Shown here piece after piece: positions 590 through 31,400 of a stretch of DNA of 35,288 nt; positions within the stretch are counted from its first letter, which is position 1; each line of letters begins with the position of its first letter. This stretch comes from Desulfovibrio sp. (GTDB lineage: Bacteria > Desulfobacterota > Desulfovibrionia > Desulfovibrionales > Desulfovibrionaceae): contig JAIKXS010000047.1 in NCBI GenBank assembly GCA_024683955.1, forward strand, positions 1 to 35,288. The letters are read 5' to 3'. Below the pieces are notes generated by a model, which saw nothing but the letters and a program-made list of their open reading frames with translations, had not been told where the DNA came from and made no database searches. A program made the translations under genes and the position numbers.

Positions 590-811
590 ACCCTCGCCCG
601 CGATACGGGATAACTTGGGACTCCCCCTCTTTAAACATTCGCCAGTTCGTAATTTCATACCAAAGGCATCAGCAATGCGACGAAATGCAAGCATGAGTTC
701 CTGTTGGCTTCCATCGGCAAGTAAAGAGTTGAGATATTCTGCTGCAACAGAAGGGTTATTGCGAAGGCTCTTCGCTGTAGCCTCATCATGGGAAATATAG
801 GGAGTAATCAT
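566..811 (-). pseudogene. Truncated addiction-module antidote protein
   Basis: From an ATG at 811 the first 50 or so residues resemble the N-terminal half of small antidote proteins of the HI1420/TIGR02684 type (H-D-E-A, A-A-E-Y-L-N, L-x-x-A-F-R-R-I-A-D-A-F-G-M). Such proteins are about 95 residues and continue into a helix-turn-helix half, usually ending in a G-M-K-L-like segment. Here the frame departs after F-G-M-K-L and ends within 30 unrelated residues beside the scar repeats, so the DNA-binding half is missing. An internal deletion joining two similar F-G-M segments is possible. It sits 42 bases after the XRE antitoxin in the same direction. It was recognised by motif memory only. Confidence 0.45.
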
Positions 812-852
812 TGCCAAGACTGTTCTCGTAATCGTTACAAAAACAGTATTTC

Positions 853-1137
853 CTAAACGACTTCATCACGTGGAACAATTGCGAGCTTGTACCCCATAGG
901 GGTAAGCACCTTAAAAAGAGTATCTATTTGAGGAGTAGCTTTCATTCTCTCCAATCGGGCGACAGCAGATTGTTTAAGGCCTGCTGCTTCCGCAAGTTGC
1001 CTCTGTGTTAGCCCCTTTGCCTCACGCGCTTCAATCAGTTTACCAATCAATTCAACTTCAAATTCAATTCTCGCACGTTCAGATGGCGATAGATTATTAT
1101 CATTGTTATAGAAATCACGAAAGCTTGTGCTTGACAT
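853..1137 (-). CDS. XRE-family antitoxin (HigA-like)
   Basis: The protein has 94 residues. A central helix-turn-helix (roughly residues 37-60, L-T-Q-R-Q-L-A-E-A-A-G-L-K-Q-S-A-V-A-R-L) is followed by the short strand Y-K-L-A-I-V near the end, typical of antitoxins paired with RelE/HigB-type toxins. The ATG at 1137 is chosen because GAGGAG lies 8 bases upstream; the start 18 bases earlier would sit on that ribosome site. It begins one base after the toxin stop, in toxin-first order as in higBA. It would bind its toxin and repress the promoter at 1522-1549, probably through the 16-bp palindrome there. Confidence 0.8.
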   Translation of the reverse strand: MSSTSFRDFYNNDNNLSPSERARIEFEVELIGKLIEAREAKGLTQRQLAEAAGLKQSAVARLERMKATPQIDTLFKVLTPMGYKLAIVPRDEVV

Positions 1138-1138
1138 A

Positions 1139-1453
1139 TCACATGCTCCTCTCAAGAAAATCTTTCAAATTTCTCGATGCCTGCTCGATTTCTTTAACAG
1201 GTGTATTTTTAGTCTTCTTTATAAAATGATGTAACAATACAAATTTATTATCACGCCAATAAAAGAAAAGAATTTTGTGTGCCAATGGTCTCAATTCCCA
1301 TAGATTACCATCAAGATACTTTACTTGAGGTTCGCCGATTCGCGTTCCATAGGTTTCTAATGCTCGTATATATGTCAGTATTTTTTGATATTGAATACGG
1401 GCATCTTTACTCGTCTGAGCTTTATTTCGAAGTTCAATCAAAACTTCTTTCAC
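1139..1453 (-). CDS. RelE/HigB-type toxin with a stop at its natural second codon
   Basis: From a GTG at 1453 the 104-residue product matches the Gp49/HigB branch of RelE-fold ribosome-dependent ribonucleases: Y-L-D-G-N-L-W-E-L-R-P, then I-L-F-F-Y-W and F-V-L-L-H-H-F-I-K-K-T. The frame is open further upstream and encodes the expected first strand (V-E-F-Y-E-D), but the ATG that should start it, at 1498, is followed at once by TAA. Only the internal GTG can start the protein in frame, which would remove about 14 residues including the first beta strand. The toxin is therefore probably inactive or poorly made, while the promoter and antitoxin are intact. Confidence 0.75.
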   Translation of the reverse strand: MKEVLIELRNKAQTSKDARIQYQKILTYIRALETYGTRIGEPQVKYLDGNLWELRPLAHKILFFYWRDNKFVLLHHFIKKTKNTPVKEIEQASRNLKDFLERSM

Positions 1454-1521
1454 TGGCTGTGAGCCATTTTTATCTTCATAAAACTCAACTTCTTACATCG
1501 CAATACCCTTTATCGTGCATA

Positions 1522-1549
1522 ATTATAACAAATTTGTTATTGCTGTCAA
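1522..1549 (-). promoter_or_regulatory. Strong promoter with 16-bp palindromic operator (toxin/antitoxin)
   Basis: TTGACA (1549-1544) and TATAAT (1527-1522) are both perfect consensus hexamers, 16 bp apart, reading leftward. The perfect palindrome ATAACAAATTTGTTAT (1525-1540) covers the spacer and enters the -10 box, as expected for autorepression by the antitoxin. Confidence 0.8.
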
Positions 1550-1645
1550 GTGCTCTACACCGCTTCCACGCAAAAATCTACCGCTATCGCCGATTATCTG
1601 TTTTCACCTGCTCTGCTCGTCCATGCCCGGTCGAATTCGTATGGC

Positions 1646-2776
1646 TTATGCAAGCGCCATCGACGACAGCAACCGCGCCGCTTCTGCCCCTTGGTTGGGA
1701 GCCAAGTGCGCATATCGCTGGGGCATGATGATTGACTTGTGCCCCATAAGCCGCTGCACCGTGTAAAGAGGAACGCCAGACTGAACAAGCCACGAGGCAA
1801 AGGTATGCCGCAGCGTATGAAATACAACCTTGTCGCGGGGGTCGGTTATGCCCTCATTGAGCTTGGTATCGCGGAGAATCATGCGGAAGCCGGGGCTAAT
1901 CTGGTGATGCGGCGTATTCCTCGTTCCGGCTTTCGGAAAGACCAGACGGCCGGGTTGCCCCTTTGTTTCGGCCTGATGCTTTTCAAGCATGTCCTTAACC
2001 TGTTCGGGCATATAGACGACGCGGTTCATGGCGTTCTTGGAATCCATGACCGTGATTGTTCCGTCCGTGAAGTTGACATGCTCCCAGCGCAGAGTGAACA
2101 CTTCCCCAGCCCGAAGGCCCGTATACAGGGAAACAAGCGCCATCTGCCACAGGCTGGGGCTGCGGTCGTGCAAGGCATCCAGCAACGTCTTGGCCTCAGC
2201 CTTTGTCAGAAAACGCATACGGCGTCCGTCGCTCTGCTGAACTTTCACGTTTTCCGTGGGAATGGGGCCTTCATACAAGCCCCACTGCGCCGCCTGCCGG
2301 AATATCTGGCCGAGGAGGTTCAAGGTGTGCCGCGTGGATTGCGGAGACAGGTGCGACTCGCCCTTTCTCAAGGCGTCAACTTCCACGGCGGTGATGCTTA
2401 TAAGCGGGAGATGCCCCAGTTTTGGCTTTATGCGCTTTTCGTAGATGCCTACGGCGTCCATGGGGCGCTTGCGCATGACTTCAAGGTAATCCGAACGGAA
2501 ACGCTCGAAGACCTCATCCAGCTTCAGGCGGGCATTGTCGGCGGGAAGGGAGTCCACCTTGCGGGCGTGCTTGAGACGTTCGGCGCGAACATGGGAGGCC
2601 ATGGACGCGGTGACTTTCTCGCTGAGCCAGCCGACCTTTTCCCATATGAGCTTGCGCTCGCCGGGAAGGCGGAAACAGATGTCATAGCAGACATCCGGCT
2701 TGCCGCGGTATCGACGGCTTTCATGATCTCGCGCATAAACGCCTGTGTAGTTTGTTTTATTACGCTTTGAGGGCAT
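1646..2776 (-). CDS. Phage-type tyrosine integrase
   Basis: The protein has 376 residues, normal for a full-length island or prophage integrase. An N-terminal arm-binding region is followed by a core-binding SAM-like domain (about 85-175) and the catalytic domain. All catalytic residues are visible: R222 (T-G-L-R-A-G-E), K247 in the beta hairpin, H320 and R323 (H-T-L-R-H-T), H346 (G-H-K) and nucleophile Y355 (Q-R-Y-A-H-L). AGGAG lies 7 bases before the ATG. It would integrate and excise DNA at an attachment site. The only candidate site here is the tRNA-Glu remnant at 388-443, which lies past the 3' end of the gene. No second att copy is visible to the right. Confidence 0.92.
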   Translation of the reverse strand: MPSKRNKTNYTGVYARDHESRRYRGKPDVCYDICFRLPGERKLIWEKVGWLSEKVTASMASHVRAERLKHARKVDSLPADNARLKLDEVFERFRSDYLEVMRKRPMDAVGIYEKRIKPKLGHLPLISITAVEVDALRKGESHLSPQSTRHTLNLLGQIFRQAAQWGLYEGPIPTENVKVQQSDGRRMRFLTKAEAKTLLDALHDRSPSLWQMALVSLYTGLRAGEVFTLRWEHVNFTDGTITVMDSKNAMNRVVYMPEQVKDMLEKHQAETKGQPGRLVFPKAGTRNTPHHQISPGFRMILRDTKLNEGITDPRDKVVFHTLRHTFASWLVQSGVPLYTVQRLMGHKSIIMPQRYAHLAPNQGAEAARLLSSMALA

Positions 2777-2838
2777 CGTGCGGCTCCTGGCTAAACATTG
2801 CGTGGTTCATCCGGATTTTGCGTACTCGGGGGAGGGGG

Positions 2839-3231
2839 ATGACAAATCCAACCAACTTGTCGTCCGGACATGGTGGGGAGACAAGGTTTAAAGAAGCACT
2901 GAAACTTAATGCGCCTCTTGCCGCTGCTTATTATATGAAAGAAGACTTGCGACAATTCTGGGAACAGTCGGGCAGGGAAAGCGCTCAAAAAAGTAATTGA
3001 CGACTGGGTGGAAAGAGCCAGGAAATCCGGCATTTGGCCTTTGATAAAGATTGGCAACACCATTGCCGCATATACGTTCGACATTCTGAATTGGTATGAC
3101 CATCCGCTGTCCTCAGGCCGGCTCGAAGGCGCAAACAACAAGATAAAAGCACTCAAGCGGATGGCATATGCTACAGAGATTTCGAATTTTTCAAGCTCAG
3201 AATACTGGCCATTCACGAGGCAAGGTACTAA
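2839..3231 (+). pseudogene. ISL3-family transposase, C-terminal fragment
   Basis: The segment matches the end of ISL3 (IS204/IS1001/IS1165) transposases: R-F-K-E-A-L-K-L-N, A-Y-Y-M-K-E-D-L-R-Q-F-W, then D-D-W-x-x-R-A, the strongly conserved W-Y-D-H-P-L-S-S-G-R-L-E-G-A-N-N-K-I-K, and a tail Y-R-D-F-E-F-F-K-L in another frame ending in L-A-I-H-E-A-R-Y and a TAA at 3229. Two single-base shifts break it: an extra A near 2970-2975 and a missing G after K-R-M-A-Y near 3170. The first roughly 270 residues are absent, so it is dead. It lies just upstream of the integrase, pointing away from it. Confidence 0.85.
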
Positions 3232-3470
3232 CGGATGAACCGGTTTTGTTTCCTCTTCCTCCCTAAACCTCATCTTGCTGCCACTGTACGGTGGCGGATA
3301 ATGACCGCCCTCCCCTCCTCTTTCCAAGTTTCCTGCGAATACACTTTTTTGTAGAAGCCTGTCTTCCCGAGCTGACAGCCGGAACTTTTGGTGAGGCGTT
3401 GCTTTCTGAACCGTTTCCAAAGCCGTTTCCGGAGTATTCGTTTCTTAGCGTGATACTTGAACAGTTCTCG

Positions 3471-3758
3471 GGGGGCATGCTCGCGTCTTATTCCGTGTTC
3501 GGGACATTGTATCCGTTCAGGTCTGTAACAGAGAAGGTCTTCGTATCCATATAAATTCGGAACTCTCCAGGTAATTTCACTCTTGCTTTGGTAGTCATAT
3601 CCCGGACAGCTCTTCCCTCAGACGGGACAGCAAGACTGCCTGCTTTTAAACGGCATCACATGAGCAAGAATTCTTTTGTGGATGCATTTTTCTTTCTGAA
3701 AGGAAACAGGAACCTCTTGTTCTTCAAAAGAAATCACTCGAATTTGATTGAGATCCAT
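3471..3758 (-). pseudogene. ISL3-family transposase, N-terminal fragment with internal TGA
   Basis: Read leftward from an ATG at 3758, the frame gives the ISL3 zinc-ribbon region: S-C-C-P-V-(stop)-G-K-S-C-P-G-Y-D-Y, then W-R-V-P-N-L-Y-G-Y, and R-I-Q-C-P-E-H-G-I-R. The in-frame TGA at 3620-3618 replaces the first zinc-ribbon cysteine of the C-x-x-C pair, one base from TGC or TGT. Similarity stops at about 3471. It is inverted relative to the C-terminal piece at 2839-3231, so the two are not one gene with a gap. I see nothing recognisable in 3232-3470. Confidence 0.7.
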
Positions 3759-9860: not shown

Positions 9861-11283
9861 AGTCTCCGTCCTTTGTCTGCAAAACATGACGCATAATTGC
9901 CGATTTATTACACACTTCCTTCCATTCAAGCTCGGGATCGGAATCGTGCACAATGCCTCCTCCGGCCTGCCAGCAGAGAATTCTGTCGCGCTGCCACATG
10001 CTCCGGATGGTGATGCCCATGTCAAGATGCACATGCCCCGGATCAAGGCCGATCCATCCTATGCAGCCCGCGTAGGGACCGCGAGCTCCGCCTTCGAGCT
10101 CACGGATAAGTTCCATGGCCCGGATCTTCGGAGCACCGGAGACCGTACCTGCCGGAAAGGTTGCCGCAAGCACGTCGAGGGCGTCGAGACCGTCCATAAG
10201 GGTTGCCGTGACGGAACTTGTAAGGTGCATAACATGAGAAAAACGCTCAACCTGCATGGAACGATCAACCTTCACCGTTCCGGGGGCCGCGATGCGCCCG
10301 AGGTCATTTCGCCCAAGGTCCACCAGCATGACGTGCTCAGCGCATTCCTTCGGATCATTGAGGAGTTCGCTTGCAAAAAATTCGTCTTCCCGCTCATCCC
10401 GGCCGCGACGGCGGGTGCCCGCGATGGGGGAAAGCGTCAGATGTCCGTCTTCGCAGCGCACCATGACTTCCGGAGAGGAACCGAAAAGGGTGATTGCGGG
10501 AAGATTCATGTAGAACATGTAGGGAGACGCGTTGATACGCCGCATCCTGCGGTAGAGTTCAAAGGCGTCCCCCTGATACGAGCAGGAAAAACGCACGGAG
10601 GGAACGACCTGAATGGCCTCTCCGCTGCGTAATAATTCCTTGATGCGTTCTACCCAGGCTTTGTAGCCCTCACCGTCGGGAGAAGCATTTTCGAGGGATG
10701 AAGCCTCCTCCCATGCCTTTTCAAGAAAACGTTCCTGATCCGCGTCGGGGAGACTGCGCCCGCTCACGAGGGTTCTGTGTTCGCCAAGACTGATCTGGCA
10801 GAGTCGGTTGTAGAGATGATCAAAAAGAAGGATCGTCGACGGCAGGACGAGACAGCACTCAGCCTCGGACACGGGCATGACCTTCGCAAGGCGCTTTGAA
10901 AAAAGGGCCGCCATTCCAAATCCCAGATAACCGTACAGGGCACGGGTGATCGGGGGGAGATCCGTTTGTTCCGGAGCCTCGACACGTATGCGTCGCATAA
11001 CGGTACGGACACCTTCAAGGAAATCCGTTCCCTCAAGGGAACGCAACGGCTCAAGACGCTGGTCTTCTATCTCAAGATGCAGAAGGCCATCTCTGCACGA
11101 AAGCACAAGGGCATAGTCGGAAAGAAGCACGCTATAGCGGCCCCATCGCCCGTCCACCTCAGCGCTCTCAAGCAGTATGCCCCGTCCTGACGAGGTCAGA
11201 CCTTTAAAGAGACTGATCGGGGTATCCATATCGGCCGGGAGCCACCGTGCCTCCTGCTGCAAATGAATTTTTTGCTCTTCCAT
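9841..11283 (-). CDS. trpE: Anthranilate synthase component I
   Basis: TrpE makes anthranilate from chorismate with ammonia from TrpG. The 480-residue protein keeps the L-L-E-S motif (37-40) of the tryptophan feedback site, and the chorismate-binding end with G-T-V-S-G-A-P-K and Y-A-G-C-I-G-W. The ATG at 11283 is preferred (GAGG 8 bases upstream); a GTG directly before it (11286) is also possible. The gene follows the attenuator terminator by about 30 bases, so it is controlled both by leader-peptide attenuation and, judging from L-L-E-S, by feedback inhibition. Confidence 0.97.
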   Translation of the reverse strand: MEEQKIHLQQEARWLPADMDTPISLFKGLTSSGRGILLESAEVDGRWGRYSVLLSDYALVLSCRDGLLHLEIEDQRLEPLRSLEGTDFLEGVRTVMRRIRVEAPEQTDLPPITRALYGYLGFGMAALFSKRLAKVMPVSEAECCLVLPSTILLFDHLYNRLCQISLGEHRTLVSGRSLPDADQERFLEKAWEEASSLENASPDGEGYKAWVERIKELLRSGEAIQVVPSVRFSCSYQGDAFELYRRMRRINASPYMFYMNLPAITLFGSSPEVMVRCEDGHLTLSPIAGTRRRGRDEREDEFFASELLNDPKECAEHVMLVDLGRNDLGRIAAPGTVKVDRSMQVERFSHVMHLTSSVTATLMDGLDALDVLAATFPAGTVSGAPKIRAMELIRELEGGARGPYAGCIGWIGLDPGHVHLDMGITIRSMWQRDRILCWQAGGGIVHDSDPELEWKEVCNKSAIMRHVLQTKDGDYVSAHR

Positions 11284-11312
11284 CACACAGGCCTCGTTCG
11301 TTTCACAACCAT

Positions 11313-11341
11313 AAAAAAAAGCCGCCTCGCGAGGAGACGGC
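11313..11341 (-). terminator. trp attenuator terminator
   Basis: GCCGTCTC-CTCGC-GAGGCGGC folds into an 8-bp stem (one G-T pair) followed by eight T residues. It lies between the leader peptide and trpE. The 5' arm and loop (11339-11330) can instead pair over 10 positions, including two wobbles, with 11392-11383 inside the leader frame just after the Trp codons. This forms the antiterminator expected when ribosomes stall on tryptophan codons. Confidence 0.9.
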
Positions 11342-11370
11342 CTAGACTATCAACATTCTAAAACGAAGGT

Positions 11371-11457
11371 TTATAGGACACACATCTCCCCGAAGCGGTT
11401 TTCACGCCACCAAAAGCTAAAGAAAAAAGAGAAGGAGAAGGTGTTGAAATTTTGCAT
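11371..11457 (-). CDS. trpL: trp operon leader peptide
   Basis: A 28-residue frame starts at the ATG at 11457 and stops with TAA. It contains tandem tryptophans W16-W17 (F-W-W-R), preceded by a run rich in Phe and Ser. Its stop lies about 30 bases before the attenuator stem, and the antiterminator arm (11392-11383) overlaps its final codons, which is the classical attenuation layout. No Shine-Dalgarno is visible. The promoter -10 box ends only six bases before the ATG, so the transcript may begin at the A of the start codon. The tandem Trp codons make the call firm; the leaderless idea is inference. Confidence 0.9.
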   Translation of the reverse strand: MQNFNTFSFSFFFSFWWRENRFGEMCVL

Positions 11458-11463
11458 GCAGTT

Positions 11464-11492
11464 TTTTTACGTGCAGGACCGGAACCTGTCAA
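11464..11492 (-). promoter_or_regulatory. trp operon promoter
   Basis: TTGACA (11492-11487) and TAAAAA (11469-11464) are 17 bp apart, reading leftward. The predicted transcript start is at about 11457, the first base of trpL. No TrpR operator was recognised. Confidence 0.7.
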
Positions 11493-11505
11493 GTGATTTT
11501 TTCAA

Positions 11506-11610
11506 AAAAGCCGTATCAGAGCCCTTTTCGGCTCCTTTTTTCCGACAAGAAGCATAGAGACAAAAATTTTTTCTCTGAAAACGAGCCTGCAGGGCGGTCA
11601 AAAGACCGGA
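11506..11610. other. Intergenic block with several short hairpins
   Basis: Between the divergent trp and nrdD promoters lie GAGCC-CTTTTC-GGCTC followed by CTTTTTT (plus strand). An overlapping minus-strand stem AGCCG...CGGCT is followed by TTTTTT. Further on are GCC-TGCA-GGGC and CGGTC-AAAA-GACCG. These could be terminators insulating the two operons or part of a small RNA. No gene is visible from 11493 to 11662. Confidence 0.35.
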
Positions 11611-11662
11611 AAATCTTCCTAAGCGAGAGCATTCGGGCAAAAAAGTGGAAAGCGGGGAAAGC

Positions 11663-11691
11663 TTGACAAAAAAAAGGAGTATTTCTAAACT
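11663..11691 (+). promoter_or_regulatory. nrdDG promoter
   Basis: TTGACA (11663-11668) and TAAACT (11686-11691) are 17 bp apart. The transcript would start near 11698, leaving a leader of almost 200 AT-rich bases before nrdD. I looked for paired NrdR boxes and found none that convince. Confidence 0.65.
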
Positions 11692-11892
11692 GTTTTTTAG
11701 TAAAATTCTCGCTAGAAAGACGGTACACACACCAATTTCAGGCGAGAATATATATTTTTACACACTTTGTACTTTTTTTCACGTGTTTTTTTACTAATAC
11801 ACAACTCGTCTTTAAATTCTGTCCTTCCTGTATTTTTTCAATATAACAATATTATAACGCCCAAAAAGACCAGTAAAACAAGGATATTCTCC

Positions 11893-14148
11893 ATGCCTGA
11901 CACCATCATTAAACGCGACGGAACGGTTGTTGACTTTGACCAATCAAAAATTCTCAACGCCATAACCAAAGCGAATCAGGCTGTAAAAGAAGAAATGACG
12001 CCGACAGAGCTCATCTTTGTTACCGAGAAAGTCTGCAGAGAGCTTGACGAAAAGAATCTTCGCAATGTGGAAGAAATACAAGACGTGGTAGAAGAAAAAC
12101 TCATGCAGTACGGCTATCGTGATACTGCAAGGGCATATATCATTTACCGTTCCGAGCATACAAAATTACGCAATGCAGAGTCCTATCTTATGGAAATATA
12201 CAAAACTCTGACATTTGCGCCCGCCATTGAGGAAGACATAAAACGTGAAAACGCCAATATAGATGGCGACACGGCCATGGGAACCATGCTGAAATACGGT
12301 TCCGAAGGATCAAAATATTTTATCGACAACTACATTCTTCCCAAAGACGCCTCTGCAGCCCATATCAACGGCGACATCCACATTCACGACAAAGATTTTT
12401 ACATGCTGACGGAGACATGCTGTCAGATTGATCTCATCAGCCTCTTTAAAGACGGCTTCTCTACAGGTCATGGCTACCTGAGGGAGCCCAATTCTATAGA
12501 AAGCTACGCCGCCCTTGCCTGTATTGCCATCCAGGCAAACCAGAACGAAATGCACGGCGGACAGAGCGTCCCCAATTTTGATTACGCCATGGCGGACGGC
12601 GTTCAAAAAACCTTTGTCAAAGAATACCGTAGTGCGTTTTCGAGCTTTCTCTCCATCACCTGCTCAATGGACCGCGAGACAGCCAGAAAAAAAACGGACG
12701 AGTACCTGAAAAAGAGCATGATCACGCCGACCATGAGCAATGGGGAGGCGTTGCGCAAGGCGCTCAGTTCTCAATGTCCGGAAGACGGCGAACTGCTTCA
12801 AAAAGCTCATGACTATGCGATTGACACAGCGTTTGCGAGCACGGATCGTCATGTCTATCAGGCCATGGAGGCCTTGATCCACAATCTGAACACCATGAAT
12901 TCCAGAGCCGGTGCACAGGTTCCCTTCAGTTCTATAAACTACGGAACCGACACATCCCCCGAAGGCCGCATGGTGATGAAAAATCTCCTGCTCGCAACCC
13001 AGGCCGGCCTTGGCAACGGAGAGACGTCCATTTTTCCCGTGCAGATATTCAAGGTCAAGGAAGACGTCAACTACAACGAAAGCGATCCAAACTACGACCT
13101 TTTCAAACTGGCCATGGAAACATCGGCAAAACGTCTCTTCCCCAATTTCAGCTTTCTCGACGCCCCCTTTAACAAGGCCTACTACAAAAAGGGCGACTAC
13201 AATTCAGAAGTGGCCTACATGGGCTGTCGGACCCGCGTGCTCGCCAACGTCTTTGACCCTGAACGAGAAATCACGTGTGGACGGGGAAATCTGAGTTTCA
13301 CGTCCATCAACCTGCCCCGCATTGCCCTTGAATCCGAAAAGGACGTGGACAAATTCTTTACCCTGCTCGACGAGCGGATTGATCTTGTCTTCCGCCAGCT
13401 GATGCACCGCTTTAAGATTCAATGCCAGCGAAAGGTCCGCAACTATCCTTTCCTCATGGGAAACGGCATTTGGATCGATTCCGGAAAACTTGACTGGGAT
13501 GATACCATCGACACCATCATTCGCCACGGGACGCTCACCCTTGGATTCATCGGTCTTGCGGAAACGCTTACCTGTCTCACGGGAAAACATCACGGGGAAA
13601 GCGAAGCGAGCCAGGAACTGGGGCTAAAAATCATCGGCCATATGCGTAAACGCTGCGATCAGAAAAGTCAGGAGGACAAGCTCAATTATTCCCTCATCGG
13701 CACCCCTGCAGAAAGCCTGAGCGGGCGCTTTGTCCCGCTTGACCGGGCTCGTTTCGGCGTCATCCCCGGCATCACCGACAGGGACTACTACACCAATTCA
13801 TTTCATATTCCGGTCTATTTTCCCATCAAGGCCTATAAAAAGATTCAGCTTGAAGCCCCCTACCATGCATTCACAAACGGTGGTCATATCACCTATGTGG
13901 AGCTCGACGGGGACACCTGCAAAAACATGAAGGCCTTTGAAAAAATCATACGCTATATGCATGACCAGGGTATCGGCTACGGATCCATCAATCATCCCCT
14001 TGACCGGGATCCGGTCTGCGGCTACACGGGCGTGATCAATGATGTCTGCCCTCGCTGCGGTCGCCATGAAGGGGAAGGAGTAAGCGAGGAAGTGCTGAGA
14101 GAACTGCGCCGCAAATTTCCCCACATGCCAAAAATAAAAGCCCACTAG
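11893..14148 (+). CDS. nrdD: Anaerobic (class III) ribonucleoside-triphosphate reductase, C-terminus apparently short
   Basis: NrdD reduces ribonucleotides to deoxyribonucleotides under anaerobic conditions using a glycyl radical installed by NrdG. The start at 11893 is chosen because an ATP-cone begins there (I-I-K-R-D-G-T-V-V-D-F-D) and AAGGA lies 8 bases upstream; the open frame before it looks non-coding. The product has 751 residues: ATP-cone (about 1-95), barrel with N-G-D-I-H-I-H-D, T-C-C-Q-I-D-L, M-G-C-R-T-R-V and G-R-G-N-L-S-F-T-S-I-N-L-P-R, then a zinc-site region with C709, C719 and C722. It ends about 30 residues later. The usual R-x-T-G-Y-L or R-V-C-G-Y-L glycyl-radical segment is missing, and no other frame supplies it. 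Confidence 0.93.
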   Translation: MPDTIIKRDGTVVDFDQSKILNAITKANQAVKEEMTPTELIFVTEKVCRELDEKNLRNVEEIQDVVEEKLMQYGYRDTARAYIIYRSEHTKLRNAESYLMEIYKTLTFAPAIEEDIKRENANIDGDTAMGTMLKYGSEGSKYFIDNYILPKDASAAHINGDIHIHDKDFYMLTETCCQIDLISLFKDGFSTGHGYLREPNSIESYAALACIAIQANQNEMHGGQSVPNFDYAMADGVQKTFVKEYRSAFSSFLSITCSMDRETARKKTDEYLKKSMITPTMSNGEALRKALSSQCPEDGELLQKAHDYAIDTAFASTDRHVYQAMEALIHNLNTMNSRAGAQVPFSSINYGTDTSPEGRMVMKNLLLATQAGLGNGETSIFPVQIFKVKEDVNYNESDPNYDLFKLAMETSAKRLFPNFSFLDAPFNKAYYKKGDYNSEVAYMGCRTRVLANVFDPEREITCGRGNLSFTSINLPRIALESEKDVDKFFTLLDERIDLVFRQLMHRFKIQCQRKVRNYPFLMGNGIWIDSGKLDWDDTIDTIIRHGTLTLGFIGLAETLTCLTGKHHGESEASQELGLKIIGHMRKRCDQKSQEDKLNYSLIGTPAESLSGRFVPLDRARFGVIPGITDRDYYTNSFHIPVYFPIKAYKKIQLEAPYHAFTNGGHITYVELDGDTCKNMKAFEKIIRYMHDQGIGYGSINHPLDRDPVCGYTGVINDVCPRCGRHEGEGVSEEVLRELRRKFPHMPKIKAH

Positions 14149-14167
14149 GGGCTCTTATAACAATACT

Positions 14168-14725
14168 ATGAATAAAGAAATTCTGGCAGAAACGCGCATA
14201 CCTCTTGCGGGCATGGAGGAGGAATCCATCGTAGACGGCCCGGGGCTCCGTTTTGTCATCTTTACCCAGGGATGTCGCCACAACTGCAAAGGCTGTCAGA
14301 ACCCCCAGACACACAGCCTGGAGGGAGGGACTCTCCACAGTCTCTCGGACCTTATGGACCTCTATGCCACAAACCCCCTCCTTGACGGCATGACCTTTTC
14401 GGGAGGAGAACCCTTTCTGCACGCGGAAAAACTTGCTCTTCTTGCCAGGGCCGTCCACAGTGCGGGCGGCACCATAGTCACCTATACGGGCTATACCTAT
14501 GAAGAACTCAGGGAAGGCGTGCTCAACGGCTCATCACCGGCCTGGGGTGCCCTTCTCGACGAAACAGATCTCCTCATCGACGGTCCATATATCGAAGAAC
14601 AACGGGATCTGGACCTCCTCTTTCGGGGCAGCGCAAATCAGCGCATTCTTGACCGCAACGCCCGCCTGACCCTCGACTCACATCCGTTCGCTACCAGCAA
14701 CCACCATACCCGAAAAGTTTCATAG
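14168..14725 (+). CDS. nrdG: Anaerobic ribonucleotide reductase activating protein
   Basis: NrdG is the radical-SAM activase that abstracts hydrogen from the NrdD glycine. The 185-residue protein shows the cluster motif C36-x3-C40-x2-C43 (G-C-R-H-N-C-K-G-C), preceded by D-G-P-G-L-R. The S-adenosylmethionine motif T-F-S-G-G-E-P follows. It begins 19 bases after nrdD, so the two are co-transcribed. It converges with nifS; the 63 bases between carry a small ACGGG-TATG-CCCGT hairpin with no T-run. Confidence 0.95.
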   Translation: MNKEILAETRIPLAGMEEESIVDGPGLRFVIFTQGCRHNCKGCQNPQTHSLEGGTLHSLSDLMDLYATNPLLDGMTFSGGEPFLHAEKLALLARAVHSAGGTIVTYTGYTYEELREGVLNGSSPAWGALLDETDLLIDGPYIEEQRDLDLLFRGSANQRILDRNARLTLDSHPFATSNHHTRKVS

Positions 14726-14788
14726 CGCGCCTGAAAGAACGGGTATGCCCGTATCAAGCACGGTCTGCGCAGCTGAGGAATGCCTTTT

Positions 14789-15943
14789 TCAGTCCTTGAA
14801 GGGAGAAAGGGCACGAAGTGTTTCTATTATCCCAGGCACTTCCTTCAGCACATGCGCTATTTCCGCCTCCGTCGTGTAACGGGAAAGAGAAAAGCGGACG
14901 GAGCCGTGGGCATAGGAAAAGGGAACCCCCATGGCCCTGAGAACATGGGACGGTTCAAGACTCCCCGAGGTACAGGCCGAACCGGAACTCGCGCATATGC
15001 CGACACGGTCAAGCATGAGAAGAATGGCTTCACCCTCTACATTCTTGAAGGAAATATTACTGGTATTCGGAAGACGGTGATCGACATCACCGTTGACCCG
15101 CGCTCGGGGAACGGCCTCAAGAAGCCCCTGTTCAAGCCTGTCACGAAGCTTCCCGACCTTTTCCTCCTCGTGCATGTGCTTCATCGCGAGGGAACAGGCC
15201 TTACCAAGCCCTATGATATACGGAACATTTTCCGTTCCGGCCCGTCGACCCTTTTCCTGATGCCCACCGCGCATAAAGGGGCGGAAAAGAACATTTTTCC
15301 GGACAAACAGCATGCCGATGCCTTTCGGGGCATGAAGCTTATGCCCGGAAAGAGAGAGCATATCGATGGGCAGGCGGCTCAGATCAACATCCTTTTTTCC
15401 GGCAATCTGCACTGCGTCAGTATGAAAGAGAACGCCCATCTCATGAGCCATGGACGCCATCTCCTCCACAGGAAAAAGAGTTCCAGTCTCATTATTGGCG
15501 AACATGACCGAGACAAGGGCCGTATCAGGCGTCAGAGCCCTTTTGTACTCGTCAAGATCAATGCGCCCGAACGAATCCACCGGAAGACGCGTCACGGAAT
15601 ACCCTTCTCGTTCCCAGTAGGCAGCTACATTAAGGACGGCCGGATGCTCGACGGCGGTTGTGATAAGATGACGTTTTTCAGGCTGGGTGGCAATGGCGGA
15701 CCAAAAGGCGGTATTGTCCGACTCTGAGCCGCACGAGGTAAAGATGATCTCATCAGGCTCTGCGTGGAAAAGCGCCGCGACCTCCTCTCTTGCCTTTGTA
15801 AGAGAGTGCTGTACCTCACCACCAAAGGAATACATGCTTGAAGGATTGGCATAGGAGGAAGTAAAGAAGGGGAGCATGGCCTCCGTCACTTCAGGAGCAA
15901 TAGCCGTTGTGGCGTTGTTGTCAAGATAGACCCGTTCCATCAT
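14789..15943 (-). CDS. nifS: Cysteine desulfurase NifS
   Basis: NifS takes sulfur from L-cysteine and passes it as a persulfide to the NifU scaffold. The 384-residue fold-type I PLP enzyme starts V-Y-L-D-N-N-A-T-T. It has H100 (E-H-P-A-V), the PLP lysine K202 (S-G-H-K-L-H-A-P-K-G) and the persulfide cysteine C324 (S-S-G-S-A-C-T-S-G). The first ATG overlaps the nifU stop by four bases (ATGA), so the two are coupled. A second ATG follows immediately. Confidence 0.96.
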   Translation of the reverse strand: MMERVYLDNNATTAIAPEVTEAMLPFFTSSYANPSSMYSFGGEVQHSLTKAREEVAALFHAEPDEIIFTSCGSESDNTAFWSAIATQPEKRHLITTAVEHPAVLNVAAYWEREGYSVTRLPVDSFGRIDLDEYKRALTPDTALVSVMFANNETGTLFPVEEMASMAHEMGVLFHTDAVQIAGKKDVDLSRLPIDMLSLSGHKLHAPKGIGMLFVRKNVLFRPFMRGGHQEKGRRAGTENVPYIIGLGKACSLAMKHMHEEEKVGKLRDRLEQGLLEAVPRARVNGDVDHRLPNTSNISFKNVEGEAILLMLDRVGICASSGSACTSGSLEPSHVLRAMGVPFSYAHGSVRFSLSRYTTEAEIAHVLKEVPGIIETLRALSPFKD

Positions 15944-17187
15944 TCTCCCTCCAAAAGCACGATATCTTCCTCAAGCTGTGTCCGGATACGTGATTCAAGC
16001 CGTGAAAGCCGCTCCTTCTTCTCACCCGACTCAATATGAACGGTCACTCTAAGTCCGTCCACGTCAAGCAGGGTCGCTTTTTCCCCTTCCTTCAGAATAT
16101 CAGAGGACTCTCCTAAAATTCTTGTCACTCCCTGCATACGGGCAACGTTTGTCAAGTGCTTCCGTACGGCCCCCTTTCCTGTGTCAGAGCTTCCCTTTTT
16201 GAGCTCGGCCGCCAGGATTTCCGCAATCTCATTGCGGCATTCCCCGCACGCACCGCCGGCCTTGGTGTAATCGGTAACCTCATCGACACTTGTAAGGCCG
16301 TTTTCCCGAATGACGCGAATAATCTGGGCATCTGTCACACCAAAGCACTTACAGACAAGCCTGCCGATCTCCTGTGCATGGGGAACCGGTGCTTCTCCGC
16401 GCCAGTTGCGGATAGCCGCCTCCAGCGCCTCCTGCCCCATGACCGAACAGTGCATCTTCTCACGCGGCAGACCGCCGAGCTTCGCCACAATATCGTTGTT
16501 CGTCACCTTGAGTGCGTCCTCAACCGACATGCCGATGATGATATCCGTGAGAACAGAACTCGAAGCAATGGCGCTCGCACAGCCAAAGGTTTCAAATCCG
16601 GCCTTTTCGATGACACCCTCGTCACTGATTTTGAGATGGAGCCGCAAGGCATCGCCGCATGCGAGACTGCCCACTTCTCCCACTGCGTTGGCATCAGCAA
16701 GAGGTCCGGCATTATGCGGATGTAAAAAATGGTCATGGACAGCTTTTGTATAATCCCACATAACGGTCTCCTCCCGGTGCCGTTGTGCATCAAGCAATGT
16801 TTGTAACGTGATGGTGCGCAGATAGCACCGGATCTGTAAGGCAAATGAAAACCAAAACCAGTGAAGGCCGCACGTTCCGAGTCGTTCACAGCATGGCTGT
16901 TCGGCCAGACAGTCAAGGGCAAAAAGCGGACCTTCAAGACAGACAAAAAGATCTTCAAGCCGGATACAACGCGGCTCCACAAGAAGTCTGTAGCCGCCAC
17001 CGGAACCACGCTCAGCCGCAAGAATGCCGAGAGGCTTGAGTGCGTGCACAATCTGTTCAAGATAGCCGGGAGAGATCCCTTCATCTCGGGCGACAGAGGC
17101 AAGACTTACGGTCTTCTTTTCCTGCCCCTCCAGGGCAAGACGCAGAAGGAAACGCAGTCCGTAACGTGTGCGGGTCGAAAAACGCAT
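15940..17187 (-). CDS. nifU: Rrf2-family regulator fused in frame to NifU Fe-S scaffold
   Basis: One 415-residue frame holds two proteins that are normally separate. Residues 1-142 are an Rrf2/IscR-type regulator: winged helix with S-P-G-Y-L-E-Q-I-V and G-S-G-G-G-Y-R-L, then C93, C99, C100 and C106, spaced like the IscR cluster cysteines. From M143 (16761) it is NifU: scaffold cysteines C177, C203 and C247; a BFD-like [2Fe-2S] domain with C279, C281, C314 and C317; and an Nfu-like end without its C-x-x-C. A strong GGGAGGAG lies six bases before codon 143, so nifU can also be translated alone. The frame starts 3 bases after the metA stop. Confidence 0.93.
   Translation of the reverse strand: MRFSTRTRYGLRFLLRLALEGQEKKTVSLASVARDEGISPGYLEQIVHALKPLGILAAERGSGGGYRLLVEPRCIRLEDLFVCLEGPLFALDCLAEQPCCERLGTCGLHWFWFSFALQIRCYLRTITLQTLLDAQRHREETVMWDYTKAVHDHFLHPHNAGPLADANAVGEVGSLACGDALRLHLKISDEGVIEKAGFETFGCASAIASSSVLTDIIIGMSVEDALKVTNNDIVAKLGGLPREKMHCSVMGQEALEAAIRNWRGEAPVPHAQEIGRLVCKCFGVTDAQIIRVIRENGLTSVDEVTDYTKAGGACGECRNEIAEILAAELKKGSSDTGKGAVRKHLTNVARMQGVTRILGESSDILKEGEKATLLDVDGLRVTVHIESGEKKERLSRLESRIRTQLEEDIVLLEGE
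16763..16776 (-). promoter_or_regulatory. Internal ribosome-binding site for nifU
   Basis: CGGGAGGAGACCGTT directly before the ATG at 16761 is an excellent Shine-Dalgarno placed inside the open rrf2 frame. It implies a second, NifU-only product of 273 residues besides any Rrf2-NifU fusion. Confidence 0.75.
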
Positions 17188-26179: not shown

Positions 26180-28498
26180 TCAAGGTCTGGCCAGTACCGG
26201 CACTTCAATCACGCTTGAACGTAAGGAGTCATCCACTGCCATAATGTGGTAACTGCCTGGAGCGAGCTCAAGGGGGAAGGCGCTCCCGGGAGATCCGTTT
26301 CCAACAAAGACGCCGTTCACATACCAGTTGATTTCCTTTGTTCCGGCATCGGCATGGGCCAGAAGCGCGATCCTCGCCTTCCGGTCCGCGCCGTATGCGT
26401 AATAGATAAGCCCGCGCTTTGGACTCGTAATTCGCGGAGGATTTCCCCTCTCCTGTCCGCGACAGGCCTCCTCAAAAGGCGGAGGAGGAGGCTTAGGAAG
26501 CCCCGCCCTCGCAAAAAGCTGGCCAAGATCACTTGGCCAGAATTCCCACACGATTTCCTTCGTCTTCCCCTCTTCTGGAAAACAGGCACGCAACCCTTCG
26601 CTGTTGACGGTGATCCTGCGCAGAATCCCGGTCTTCCTGACGGGCGACACTCCAGGAATGAACCATGTCTCCGTTCTGTCTTCGCAAAGGCTGGTATCTA
26701 CATCTCCGCTCACCGTGCAGACCTCAATCCGTTCCACATTGACGGAACTATCAGGGATGCTCAGGCGCTCAACAAGTGGTTCACTGCGGGCAATACGCTG
26801 CGCAATATCCATAAAAAGGGGTTCGGCAACGCGTCCTCCGACAAGGAGTGGGTTGGCCCTGTTATCAAAATTGCCGATCCAGACAATAAGCACGTACGGT
26901 CCAAAAATGCCGCACGTCCAGGCATCCCGAAACCCGTTGGAAGTTCCGGTTTTGAGACGCACGGGAAGGAGCCTCCCTCTCTCCGTCCTGAGATATTTGT
27001 CCGAACGCGGATCTAGCAGCATCTGGCAGGTAACAAATGAGGCTTCCGGAGACAGGACACTCTGTCCCCGGGTATCAGTCGCCCCGAACAGCATACGCAG
27101 GGGACGGCGGACCCCCTTATTGGCAAGAAGAGCGTAGAGTTCGGCCTCCTCCCTCATACTGACCTCCGCACCGCCAAGCACAAGCGCCAGGCCGTAGTGA
27201 GAGGCACTTTTCTGAAAACGAACCCCGGCATGGGCAAGAAACGTATAAAGATCCGGAGAACGGAGCTTTTGGGCAAGGGCTATGGCAGGAAGATTTCTGC
27301 TTGATCTGAGGGCGTATTCCGCGCTGACGGGCCCCTTGAAGCTGTGATCAAAATTTTCGGGGTCATAGCCCTGAAAGCTTTTCGGCGTATCGGCAAGAAT
27401 TGTTCGTGGATGAATCAACCCCTGTTCAAGAGCCAGAGCATAAATAAAGGGTTTCAGGGTGGAACCCGGAGAACGGCGTATTCTCGTTCCGTCAATCTGT
27501 CCCCCTATGGAGGCATCGGAAAAGTCCGCACTGCCAACAAGGGCACGCACTTCAGAGCTCGGCCAGTGCACAAGAAGGGCGCTGGCATTTTTCAGACCAA
27601 AGGCCGCGTTTCTTGCCACAAAACGGCGTATTTGCTCTTCGAGTATCTTCTGGCGGTTGCCATCGAGCGTTGTTCGAAGAGGAGCTCTGGACGATTTTCC
27701 ATCCTTCTCAACCTGGCTAAGCACATCCTGCACAAAGTGCGGTGCTCTGAAGGGCAACTCCGATACGCTCCGTATACGTAGTGGCGCAGTGTCTTCAGCC
27801 CGTGTACGCAATCGTTCCCTTGCCGCCTGAAAATGGGGATTATCCATGGATGGCCGGCGTCGCACGGGATTTTGCGGCACAAGCATAAGGGCTTCGGCTT
27901 CCTCCCTTGTCAGGCGGGACGTTTTCTTATGAAAATAAATCTGTGCCGCGCTCTCAAGCCCCTCCACGTTCCCGCCGTAGGGAGCAAGACAGAAGTAAGC
28001 TTCAAGTATTTCCTCCTTCGTAAAATGCCGTTCCAGACAGAGCGCCCAAAAGATCTGCTGCAGTTTTCCGAAGACCGATTGCGTGTACAAATGATAGCGA
28101 AGCCGCGCCGTCTGCATGGTAAGGGTTGACCCCCCCATACGACGCCCTCCGCTCACGATACTCATAACCGAACGGGCCAGCGCGCCGACATTGACACCGG
28201 GATGTTCCCAGAAATACCGGTCCTCATACTCTATCACCCGTTCAAGAGCCCAGCTCGGAATGGAGGAAAGCGGGGTGTAGAGGCGGTATTTCTGATCCGT
28301 TGTGAGGGTGATCCGCAAAAGTCTCCCGTCACGGTCCTCAAGAACGGTCGAAAAATCGACGTCGGACAGAAGAGGATCTACAGGCACAAGGCCGAGCGCC
28401 AGCCAGAACAGCCAGATGAACAGAAACGGCCCCAGAAAAAGGGCAGCAAGCCGATATACGGCTCTGCTGCCCACAAAAGCACGAAGGAAATAGCCCAC
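26180..28498 (-). CDS. pbpC: Penicillin-binding protein 1C
   Basis: PBP1C is a bifunctional class A murein synthase anchored in the inner membrane. In the 772 residues one sees a membrane segment (about 15-38), the GT51 glycosyltransferase with E92 (E-D-R-Y-F-W-E-H) and G-G-S-T-L-T-M-Q-T-A, and the transpeptidase with S346-x-x-K349 (S-T-L-K), S400-R-N402 and K516-T-G. The end is the PBP1C-specific BiPBP_C domain with a proline run (K-P-P-P-P-P) before it. It starts at a GTG one base after the alpha-2-macroglobulin stop, with GAGGTG upstream, so the two are translated together, as in E. coli yfhM-pbpC. Confidence 0.96.
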   Translation of the reverse strand: MGYFLRAFVGSRAVYRLAALFLGPFLFIWLFWLALGLVPVDPLLSDVDFSTVLEDRDGRLLRITLTTDQKYRLYTPLSSIPSWALERVIEYEDRYFWEHPGVNVGALARSVMSIVSGGRRMGGSTLTMQTARLRYHLYTQSVFGKLQQIFWALCLERHFTKEEILEAYFCLAPYGGNVEGLESAAQIYFHKKTSRLTREEAEALMLVPQNPVRRRPSMDNPHFQAARERLRTRAEDTAPLRIRSVSELPFRAPHFVQDVLSQVEKDGKSSRAPLRTTLDGNRQKILEEQIRRFVARNAAFGLKNASALLVHWPSSEVRALVGSADFSDASIGGQIDGTRIRRSPGSTLKPFIYALALEQGLIHPRTILADTPKSFQGYDPENFDHSFKGPVSAEYALRSSRNLPAIALAQKLRSPDLYTFLAHAGVRFQKSASHYGLALVLGGAEVSMREEAELYALLANKGVRRPLRMLFGATDTRGQSVLSPEASFVTCQMLLDPRSDKYLRTERGRLLPVRLKTGTSNGFRDAWTCGIFGPYVLIVWIGNFDNRANPLLVGGRVAEPLFMDIAQRIARSEPLVERLSIPDSSVNVERIEVCTVSGDVDTSLCEDRTETWFIPGVSPVRKTGILRRITVNSEGLRACFPEEGKTKEIVWEFWPSDLGQLFARAGLPKPPPPPFEEACRGQERGNPPRITSPKRGLIYYAYGADRKARIALLAHADAGTKEINWYVNGVFVGNGSPGSAFPLELAPGSYHIMAVDDSLRSSVIEVPVLARP

Positions 28499-28499
28499 G

Positions 28500-31400
28500 C
28501 TACTTCACCTCAATCACTGACCCCTTGCTGTCACCGCGTTTCGCAGGTTCATACATGGCTTCGGCGTGGGCGCCCGGCACAACAAAACGTCCCTTGGTCA
28601 CAGCGCGAAGTCTGTAGGAGAAGCAGCGCTCGTCCGTCGAGAGATTCGCAAAGAAAAGAGCCCGGTCCTCTCTGCGCTCATAGCGTAACAGGCCCTCCGG
28701 TTTTTCCTGCGCATTCTTTTCAAGAATGGGCTCAAGACCGCCTGCCACAAGATCAATAAGAACGGCGTTCTGAAGAGCATCTCCGTGGGAGCGGGCACAA
28801 ATTTTTGCCTCCACGACATCGCCCCGTTCAACGCTGGACACGGAATTGCCGGAGCGGTCAAGAAGACGCTTGCTCACTTCAATACCACTGGAACTTTCCT
28901 TCATGGACGCCTTGGTATCAAAGCCCTGTTCCACAAGAAGGGCAGAAAGCATTGGCGCATTGGGTGCATGAATGCCAAAGCGGGTGCACCCCGGTGCTTC
29001 AAGCACGAACAGGCCGTCTACGGTCTGCATCTTCTCCTGATCTAGGAATCCTTCGGCATATTCAAGGCATTTTGCGGAAAGGCCCTTGGCCCGTTCTTCC
29101 GTTTTGGACGCGATTTCTGCCAGAGCTCTGGATGTCATTGCAAGATCTACCGTGGTTGCCCATTCGGAAAGACCGGCATCGATGAGAGAGGAGACAAGAG
29201 AAGTGCGATCAGCCTCATTGGTAAAGGTCTGTTCGAGAATAAGAGCATGAAGCGCGCGGGCCATACCGGTCGAGAAGAGGCTGTCCGTCGTTGTCTGGAC
29301 GGTACCCTTCGGGAGGCGCTCGGTGGCACGTTTCTTCAGGCGCAACGTCGCAAAGCTCTCGGCGAGAAGACTTGCCAGCACGTCTTTTTCCCAAGCCGTG
29401 GTGTTTTTGGAAAACCAGTCCTCAAGGTTGGAGAGTTGTGCTGTCATAATACGGCCATTGCGCTGCAGAACCCAGGCACCGTAGATTTTCCTCCGGCCAT
29501 CGGTGACGCTTTGCGGCGTACGGCCGACCAGGTCCTCGACAAGTGCAAGGACCCTGTCAAGAAGATCTTCCGGCACGGCAAGTCCGTGCTCCTGCATGGT
29601 CACAAGGAAATCCGCCGCGTAAACGGTCACAAATGTATCCGGATCATCTCCTCCGGGCCACATGGATATTCCATCCCAGTCAATGGAACTGCGGATGGCC
29701 GAAAGTGCCGCGTCGATAGCTTCTTCGCCCTCTTTTGCAGCACGGGCCTTCGAGATATTCGGCCGGATGAGCACGCGGTCGCGAAGCGCCGGACGATCAT
29801 GAAGCACCGCATAAGGCATAGCCTGACTTATTTTTTGTTCCGTGCACCCATAGGGGTAGACGGAAAGACGCTCAAGCACGGCTCTAAGACCGAGAAGCGA
29901 ACCGTCGGAAAGTGTCACCGAACGGTAAGCGTTATGAGGATACAGTGTTCTCGAGCTCGTTACAATGCGCTCATCGCCCTGGACGGGAAGAGAGGCAAGG
30001 GGAAGGAGGCTTTCCGTCGTCAGGAAGGCACTCGCGGGGCGCACGGAAATACTCTGACTGCGCTCTGATGTCTTGTTACCGGCCTTCGCCGTGAAGGCAA
30101 ACGACTGGGCACCCAGTCTGTCCTTCACACGGACGGAAAACGGAAGAACACGTTCAGCGTTTTCAGGAACCTGAAGACGCTCCTTCTGTTTTCCAGAGAC
30201 AAGTTCAAATCCGTCTGGGACATCGATGTCCACATCAATCATCGTTTTCTCGCCGCTTCCCTGAATGGTGTTAGCGACAACCAGACCTCCGGAAAAGACG
30301 TCGTTGGGCGCCACAACAAGAGGAAGTTCGGGCTTCAGAATAATGCTCCCGCGGACCAGCCCCTTTTTCATCTGACTTCCGCAGCGAAGAGTTTCGCCCT
30401 CAAGAGAGCTACCGACAGCCATAATCCGGAATGCACCGCCAAAGTAGGCAGGGACATCGACGGTATAGGTCACAGGCGTTGAACCGACTTCCAACAGGTT
30501 GGACCACACGGCGAAGGGAGGTTCGCTCTTTCTCCGGAAGGGGTTGAGGAATCGGCCTCCACCGGATCCCATACCACCACCGAATCCTGGGATGCGTCCA
30601 CGGAGGCGCTCATGATCGGGCATAAGCAAATGGTAGGCCTCGCGCGTCATAACATCGAGAGCCCGCTCGGTCAGGAGTTCCTGCAAAGGACGTGGCAGGG
30701 TAAAGTCCGTCAGCTGCAGAATACCTTCGTCAACCACAAAAAGCTGAACGTGGCCCTTGTGCTTGGACTGAAGAGTAATGGTCATTTTCTCGCCGGGCAG
30801 GACCCGCTCCGGTGCGTCCACACGGATTCCCATATCTCTTGCATCCACGCCGCACGTGATAGGAGCGACCGCGAAAGCGTGGGGATTCATGTAAATGGCT
30901 TCGGAGGACTGATCGCGCACAAAGGAAACGTTGAGATAGCCCCGGCCTTCGAAATCCTTAGGTATGGTAAGTTCATGGACACTTTCACCGGGTTCCGCGG
31001 AGAACCACTTATGGGCACTCACATGATCACGTTCAAGAGTCACAAGCCCCGTGCCTGCAAAAGGAGCAGAAAGCTGGAAATGAATCGTATCACCGGGTGC
31101 GTAGTGCTCCTTGTCAAGCACAAGGCGGAGTGATCCGTTGGACATGACGGTCTCGCTGCCGGGCTTGGCCAGACGATTACCGGCTACTGTAAAGGGAATC
31201 TGCCCAAGCTCTGTGCCGTCTGAAGCGGTCACGGTCAGGAGATAATCACCCGGTTTCTTTGTCGGCAACGGCCAACTTGTCCCCTTGGACGTAATGGTCA
31301 TTTTTTTGGATTCCAGTTCCGTATCAACGGGACGGGCATCATAGCGGTAATGCCCCTGAGCATCGCTCACGAGACTTGTGACAAAACGGCGTGCAGAAAG

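Follow-up and report, generated by a model that had tools for sequence, protein, structure and literature searches.

The question raised by this locus is how a class III ribonucleotide reductase (RNR) could work when its nrdD gene ends before the glycyl-radical segment. A sequence-only reading had described an NrdD lacking its glycyl-radical C-terminus and concluded that either the copy is dead or its radical domain comes from another polypeptide. We considered both in the window, by which we mean the whole 35,288 nucleotide stretch of Desulfovibrio DNA that was analysed, and then in the rest of its genome (G000), in related and distant genomes, and in phage records.

The truncated large chain and its neighbours

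The class III RNR features of the window are all on the forward strand:

11893..14148 (+), nrdD, large chain, catalytic subunit of class III RNR without a glycyl-radical segment (751 aa, then TAG)
11902..12162 (+), ATP-cone domain, residues 4-90 (PF03477, E 6.6e-22)
12418..12423 (+), Cys176-Cys177, presumed barrel cysteine region (columns of alignment A3, residue check)
13219..13230 (+), finger loop Met443-Gly-Cys445-Arg, a single-cysteine MGCR motif (invariant A3 columns, residue check)
14017..14058 (+), zinc-site cysteines C709, C719 and C722 (invariant in A3)
14062..14145 (+), tail RHEGEGVSEEVLRELRRKFPHMPKIKAH, C-terminal to the zinc site (shuffle test p 0.022)
14168..14725 (+), nrdG, radical-SAM activase (TIGR02491, Fer4_12, Radical_SAM)

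The window chain passes the Pfam gathering score for the NRDD barrel and covers positions 1-531 of that 562 position profile, the last 31 being absent, and its match to NCBIfam PRK07111 reaches 715 of 746; the reported loss of the C-terminus is confirmed. There are 29 residues between C722 and the TAG stop (about 30 had been counted), and nrdG does begin 19 bases past that stop. The statement that the other frames do not hold the missing segment is also correct: a motif search of all six frames of 10747-15570 (locus L001) was negative, and when the entire genome was screened in six frames with NRDD, no glycyl segment appeared on the window contig. In alignment A3 Cys176 is invariant and Cys177 nearly so, and we take this pair to have the barrel cysteine role and C709, C719 and C722 to be zinc ligands. 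By the criteria for class III RNRs, then, the chain has the MGCR finger-loop cysteine and lacks a glycyl-radical segment of its own; an MGCR finger-loop class of NrdD is described in the available text of a paper on RNR insertions (PMC9669993). The adjacent activase scores slightly below the TIGR02491 cut-off (122.9 bits against 126.1, E 1.1e-35), which is nevertheless its best match among 17 models. An assembly error in the window contig is an unlikely cause of the short NrdD, because the NrdD match ends at the same profile position in 20 other Desulfovibrio genomes, a shared ending of the kind that the sequence-only reading had proposed to look for.

Two neighbouring regions of the window were noted in passing. 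An aminotransferase class V gene (14792-15943), IscS-type by neighbourhood, adjoins 15943-17187 (-), where an Rrf2-type regulator is continuous in one ORF with NifU/IscU scaffold and BFD-like [2Fe-2S] domains; we regard the fusion of a regulator with its scaffold as probably unusual. Farther along, 26183-34142 (-) holds an 1880-aa bacterial alpha-2-macroglobulin and, after it, a penicillin-binding protein that carries a BiPBP_C domain, a common pairing.

A stand-alone glycyl-radical peptide and its distribution

The whole-genome NRDD search returned two matches, the window gene (1-531) and a second on contig C7 that spans profile positions 525-562 only. A search for a short stand-alone glycyl-radical protein, which had been suggested from the sequence, thus yields exactly one other NRDD match, a 57-aa C-terminal domain:

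C7:117341-117511 (+), stand-alone glycyl-radical peptide, 57 aa from its ATG (NRDD profile 525-562)

The open frame has 58 codons, AAGGAGA precedes its ATG, and the 57-aa product is MLMESDLFKEEIRTKAPKVGEGVKFERIRRITGYLVGTLDRFNNAKRAEEHDRVRHG, which contains RRITGYLVGTLDRFNNAKRAEE with Gly33 as the presumed radical glycine. Scored against PF13597, this peptide (P0002) reaches 32.8 bits versus 26.2; it matches NRDD and not Gly_radical (PF01228), whose sole match in this genome lies within an 825-aa frame. A profile of 31 stand-alone peptides matched one sequence in the PDB, the Prevotella copri NrdD, at residues 709-738, and the window chain aligns with residues 7-246 and 284-706 of that NrdD (with an internal gap), so that large chain and peptide occupy it without overlap. 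All 31 peptides have the glycine, although the motif by which they were selected itself contains it. Their pN/pS of 0.12 (231 pairs from 22 loci, 31 codons each, some loci near-identical) points to purifying selection on the stand-alone form.

The pairing of short large chain and separate peptide extends across the genus. In a sample of 41 genomes (the window's own and 40 relatives), an NrdD match ending at 531 was present in 21 Desulfovibrio genomes, all 21 of which also have one or more separate C-terminal matches, and the stand-alone peptide was absent from all three Desulfovibrio genomes with fused NrdD only. One further Desulfovibrio (G014) had no NRDD match, and another (G016) carries a fused NrdD alongside the split one. 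In other families of the order NrdD was fused in 15 of 16 genomes, the remaining one (G039) being without a match. Of the 21 split genomes, 16 have the peptide gene in the interval from nrdD to nrdG, and G000, G003, G012, G016 and G024 have it outside that interval; in G003 a peptide adjoins an nrdG-type radical-SAM gene away from nrdD. In the window genome it is unlinked to nrdD (different contigs), so joint expression of the two has to be assumed; the ORFs downstream of the relocated peptide are alike in the window species and in a second species, G024. By these counts the split in Desulfovibrio is a conserved system rather than one broken copy. G029, one of the 15 genomes from other families with fused NrdD, has an extra C-terminal match, RIVGYYRPVSAWN, which was excluded from the peptide count for its different motif. 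The element concerned (L055:1573-1728, +) lies in a 169-aa frame whose end, RIVGYYRPVSAWNRGKREEYKDR, resembles a glycyl-radical segment and includes a CASC motif; it may be a separately encoded radical domain belonging to another NrdD subtype.

Similar arrangements recur in other gut-type bacteria, among them Bacilli, Clostridia, Mailhella and Anaerobiospirillum. Among the 80 best genome loci resembling the peptide, which were chosen by likeness to the stand-alone form, 67 were stand-alone and 13 fused. Thirty genomes carrying such loci were searched whole, and 26 of them (one, G064, being G003 again to judge by its coordinates) combine an NrdD match ending at 531-547 with a separate peptide; they include Massiliimalia, Butyricicoccus, Mogibacterium, uncultured Bacilli, Candidatus Anaerobiospirillum and Mailhella. 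A second NrdD match, running up to 560 or 562, is present in seven of these 26 (G043, G044, G050, G051, G055, G057, G065). G041 is likewise split, a single stop separating the two parts. Where a class was sampled evenly, the split proved uncommon. In the class of G042, 52 genomes besides G042 itself had an NRDD match, and none of them had a stand-alone peptide above the cut-off; G112 had a single partial match (510-549) below the cut-off, within a 776-aa frame. In the class of G041, 35 further genomes had an NRDD match, and two of these stand out on profile span alone: G204 combines a match that stops at 538 and a separate C-terminal one with a full-length NrdD, and G221 has a separate C-terminal match in addition to a full-length NrdD. 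In a database of 5.8 billion proteins at least 7996 of 31-100 aa match the peptide, some of which may be pieces of broken or truncated genes.

Three of the 30 genomes (G068, G069, G070) have a fused NrdD. Two of these hosts also encode stand-alone radical proteins with an extra N-terminal part: one of at most 127 aa in Clostridium sporosphaeroides (G069, L302:2599-2979, -), which has 2889 database relatives, some named anaerobic ribonucleoside-triphosphate reductase, and one of 89 aa in a Clostridiales MAG (G070, L303:2547-2816, -). These proteins may be spare parts for the fused NrdD and represent the stage preceding the split.

Phage loci, large-chain tails and alternative explanations

Stand-alone peptides are frequent in viral sequence. 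A motif search of the 80 best IMG/VR loci found 78 stand-alone and none fused; the two that the motif missed are matches below the family cut-off. Fifty of the 80 records, many of them possibly fragments, were searched whole, and 47 had the C-terminal match without any NrdD, the other three (G132, G142, G144) having a truncated NrdD too. L170, outside those fifty, has a truncated NrdD. In Desulfovibrio, the neighbours of 16 loci were scanned: at 6 of them (L036, L037, L042, L046, L048, L050) an extra peptide copy has a terminase, endolysin, baseplate or tail gene no more than about 0.6 kb away, and at L045 one is near RusA; at L053, also among the 16, the motif search did not find the peptide. 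One genome, G021, carries the same peptide next to the same baseplate gene at two places (L048 and L049, near 976 kb and 2817 kb of G021:C1), each time in a 69-aa open frame. In Eggerthella phage EL753P1 (L073) the nrdD (annotated CDS 688-3546) has no radical segment, and a radical-segment-like stretch, broken into two pieces, follows about 0.45 kb downstream.

Split large chains appear to retain a trace of the lost domain. In fused enzymes a short linker connects the zinc site with FERIRRITGYLVG; split chains terminate in tails such as GEGVSEEKLRELRRKYPHMP or GEGVPMERIKNSSL. When 82 tails were compared with the peptide consensus, each against shuffles of itself, 64 reached p<0.05 and 44 p<0.01, although these tails are mutually related and hence not independent tests. 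The reversed consensus gave 12 and 0, eight shuffled consensuses gave 0-6 and 0-2, and a cruder cut of the tails gave 56 and 34. For L264, L158 and L101 the similarity runs over 35-37 columns including KG or KGY (p 0.002, 0.002 and 0.008), while the tails of L031, L073, L093, L106 and L109 had no radical-domain similarity in the cruder-cut run (p>0.4). To judge from these alignments, the tail of a split large chain looks like the decayed start of a radical domain, with some tails not fitting.

Trees were built with the C-terminus excluded from 110 rows, obtained from 151 large chains (121 distinct) by dropping 11, namely L063, L073, L107, L161 and chains below about 40% identity. Split and fused states change 9 times on the FastTree topology and 7 times on that of IQ-TREE, direction not inferred, and well-supported branches force at least 4 changes. 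A single clade of fused rows was rejected (p 2.8e-66).

These observations bear on three other explanations of the window gene. The first holds that the small proteins are YfiD-like spare parts for an NrdD cut by oxygen and not an obligatory subunit. A fused NrdD does accompany a stand-alone C-terminal match in G069, G070 and G221 (the last by profile span only), the phage records mostly carry the peptide alone, and the tail of the large chain is similar to the beginning of the peptide, much as YfiD duplicates a strand left in cut pyruvate formate-lyase (PFL), according to the accessible portion of PMC8683613. The window genome, however, has no intact NrdD to repair, so there the peptide must be in use from the start, and we consider this explanation of the window system very unlikely; a spare-part role is likely true for hosts with fused NrdD and not for the window genome.

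Less probable still is that the window nrdD is dead or decaying and that dNTPs come from another reductase. The chain does lack the essential glycine, and a class I/II reductase (PF02867) accompanies the split NrdD in 17 of the 21 Desulfovibrio genomes. Against this, PF02867 was not found in the other four (G000, G012, G024 and the 63% complete G011), the finger-loop and barrel cysteines are intact, the identical ending is conserved across the genus, and comparison with the nearest relative (L018) gives a pN/pS of 0.168 over 749 codons, by which ratio the window NrdD is under purifying selection. The window genome assembly is 92.8% complete, and another RNR could lie in the missing part. Of the two options first offered, the separate polypeptide is thus upheld by the 57-aa peptide and its conserved pairing, and the dead copy is not. 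We do not argue that the peptide is essential in the split genomes with PF02867, in G016, or in the 7 of 26 paired genomes noted above, because another reductase or a fuller NrdD is present in each.

Recoding, by stop read-through or frameshift, of nrdD and peptide into one chain can be dismissed as having next to no chance, since even though nrdD and peptide are in frame, separated by one stop, at 19 listed loci (14 once repeats of one genome are removed), the window genome has them on different contigs, only 1 of 16 Desulfovibrio operons (G006) shares a frame, and all 22 peptide genes examined have a GGAG-type ribosome-binding site before the ATG.

Proposed mechanism and significance

The window very probably encodes the large subunit of a two-subunit class III RNR whose glycyl radical is carried on a separate peptide. 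The sequence evidence for such an enzyme is strong, comprising homology, linkage, co-occurrence, conservation, the fold class of the large chain and the finding of no other RNR in the assembly. In the proposed mechanism the 57-aa peptide would dock on the truncated NrdD such that the Gly33 loop enters the barrel beside Cys445; NrdG would abstract hydrogen from Gly33 of the docked peptide, and the radical would move to Cys445 for formate-dependent reduction of ribonucleoside triphosphates, i.e. catalysis in trans. Oxygen would then cleave the small peptide only, and its cheap replacement would make it an oxygen fuse; the peptide radical subunit might also be exchangeable. A single-chain mimic of large chain plus peptide was modelled from alignment A6, and placed the glycine loop at a pLDDT (31-41) too low to show docking. 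Three other alignments for the mimic were set aside, A2 and A4 for placing the radical domain of the fused rows on the first-row linker and A5 for scattering the small peptides.

The predicted enzyme shares with known class III NrdD/NrdG systems (PF13597, PRK07111; P. copri 8p23, phage T4 1h7a) the ATP-cone, the barrel fold, MGCR, the zinc-site cysteines and the NrdG neighbour; those enzymes carry the glycine in the same chain, whereas here the glycyl-radical segment is a separate gene elsewhere in the genome. The peptide would act in trans in the manner of YfiD/GrcA and phage T4 Y06I, which the consulted part of Andorfer et al. 2021 (PMC8683613) presents as small stand-alone glycyl-radical domains, one bacterial and one phage, and which, as in the pair proposed here, share sequence between two chains; its profile match, however, is to NRDD rather than to Gly_radical. 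YfiD/GrcA and Y06I are also repair parts for PFL, an enzyme that keeps its own glycine, whereas the partner here would be an NrdD. The window large chain has no radical glycine of its own, so the peptide, unlike YfiD, should be obligatory. The split class II RNR of Pseudomonas aeruginosa reportedly keeps radical residue and barrel together. As far as the available text of PMC4520616 goes, that enzyme is likewise an RNR in two polypeptides, but it is class II and B12-dependent, the window enzyme being class III.

Within the portion of Andorfer et al. to which we had access, YfiD and Y06I are the only validated spare parts, both for PFL, and such proteins are said to be possible for other glycyl radical enzymes (PMC8683613). 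The partial texts of four further sources are silent on the arrangement proposed here: a phage RNR survey treats nrdD broken by introns, inteins and fragmentation and does not describe a split peptide (PMC3653736), the RNR insertion paper (PMC9669993) and a paper on non-glycine radical enzymes (PMC11528403) do not mention a split NrdD, and a Fusobacterium review mentions autonomous cofactors for PFL only (PMC12288474). Searches of the open-licence PMC literature brought up no split NrdD of this sort; one may be in print elsewhere.

How the two-subunit form arose is a matter on which we stand evenly divided. One course of events is that class III RNR repeatedly became two-subunit with an exchangeable radical subunit, a stand-alone domain of chromosomal or phage origin serving first as a spare part for a fused NrdD, the fused domain then decaying (leaving the GEGVxxExLR tail) and the peptide becoming obligatory, with peptide-only phages refreshing or taking over the host DNA-precursor supply during infection; we would give it an even chance.

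Current annotation masks the split, in that the five peptide relatives with names among the 120 matches listed are all called hypothetical protein, and the truncated large chain still passes the cut-off of PRK07111. Judged by sequence, the peptide is a strong candidate for a spare-part-like radical protein of a DNA-precursor enzyme, recurrent in several anaerobe groups. If this is true, the radical could be titrated, exchanged and studied in trans; oxygen cuts could be survived cheaply; and phages would possess a lever on host dNTP supply that is often shorter than 70 residues.
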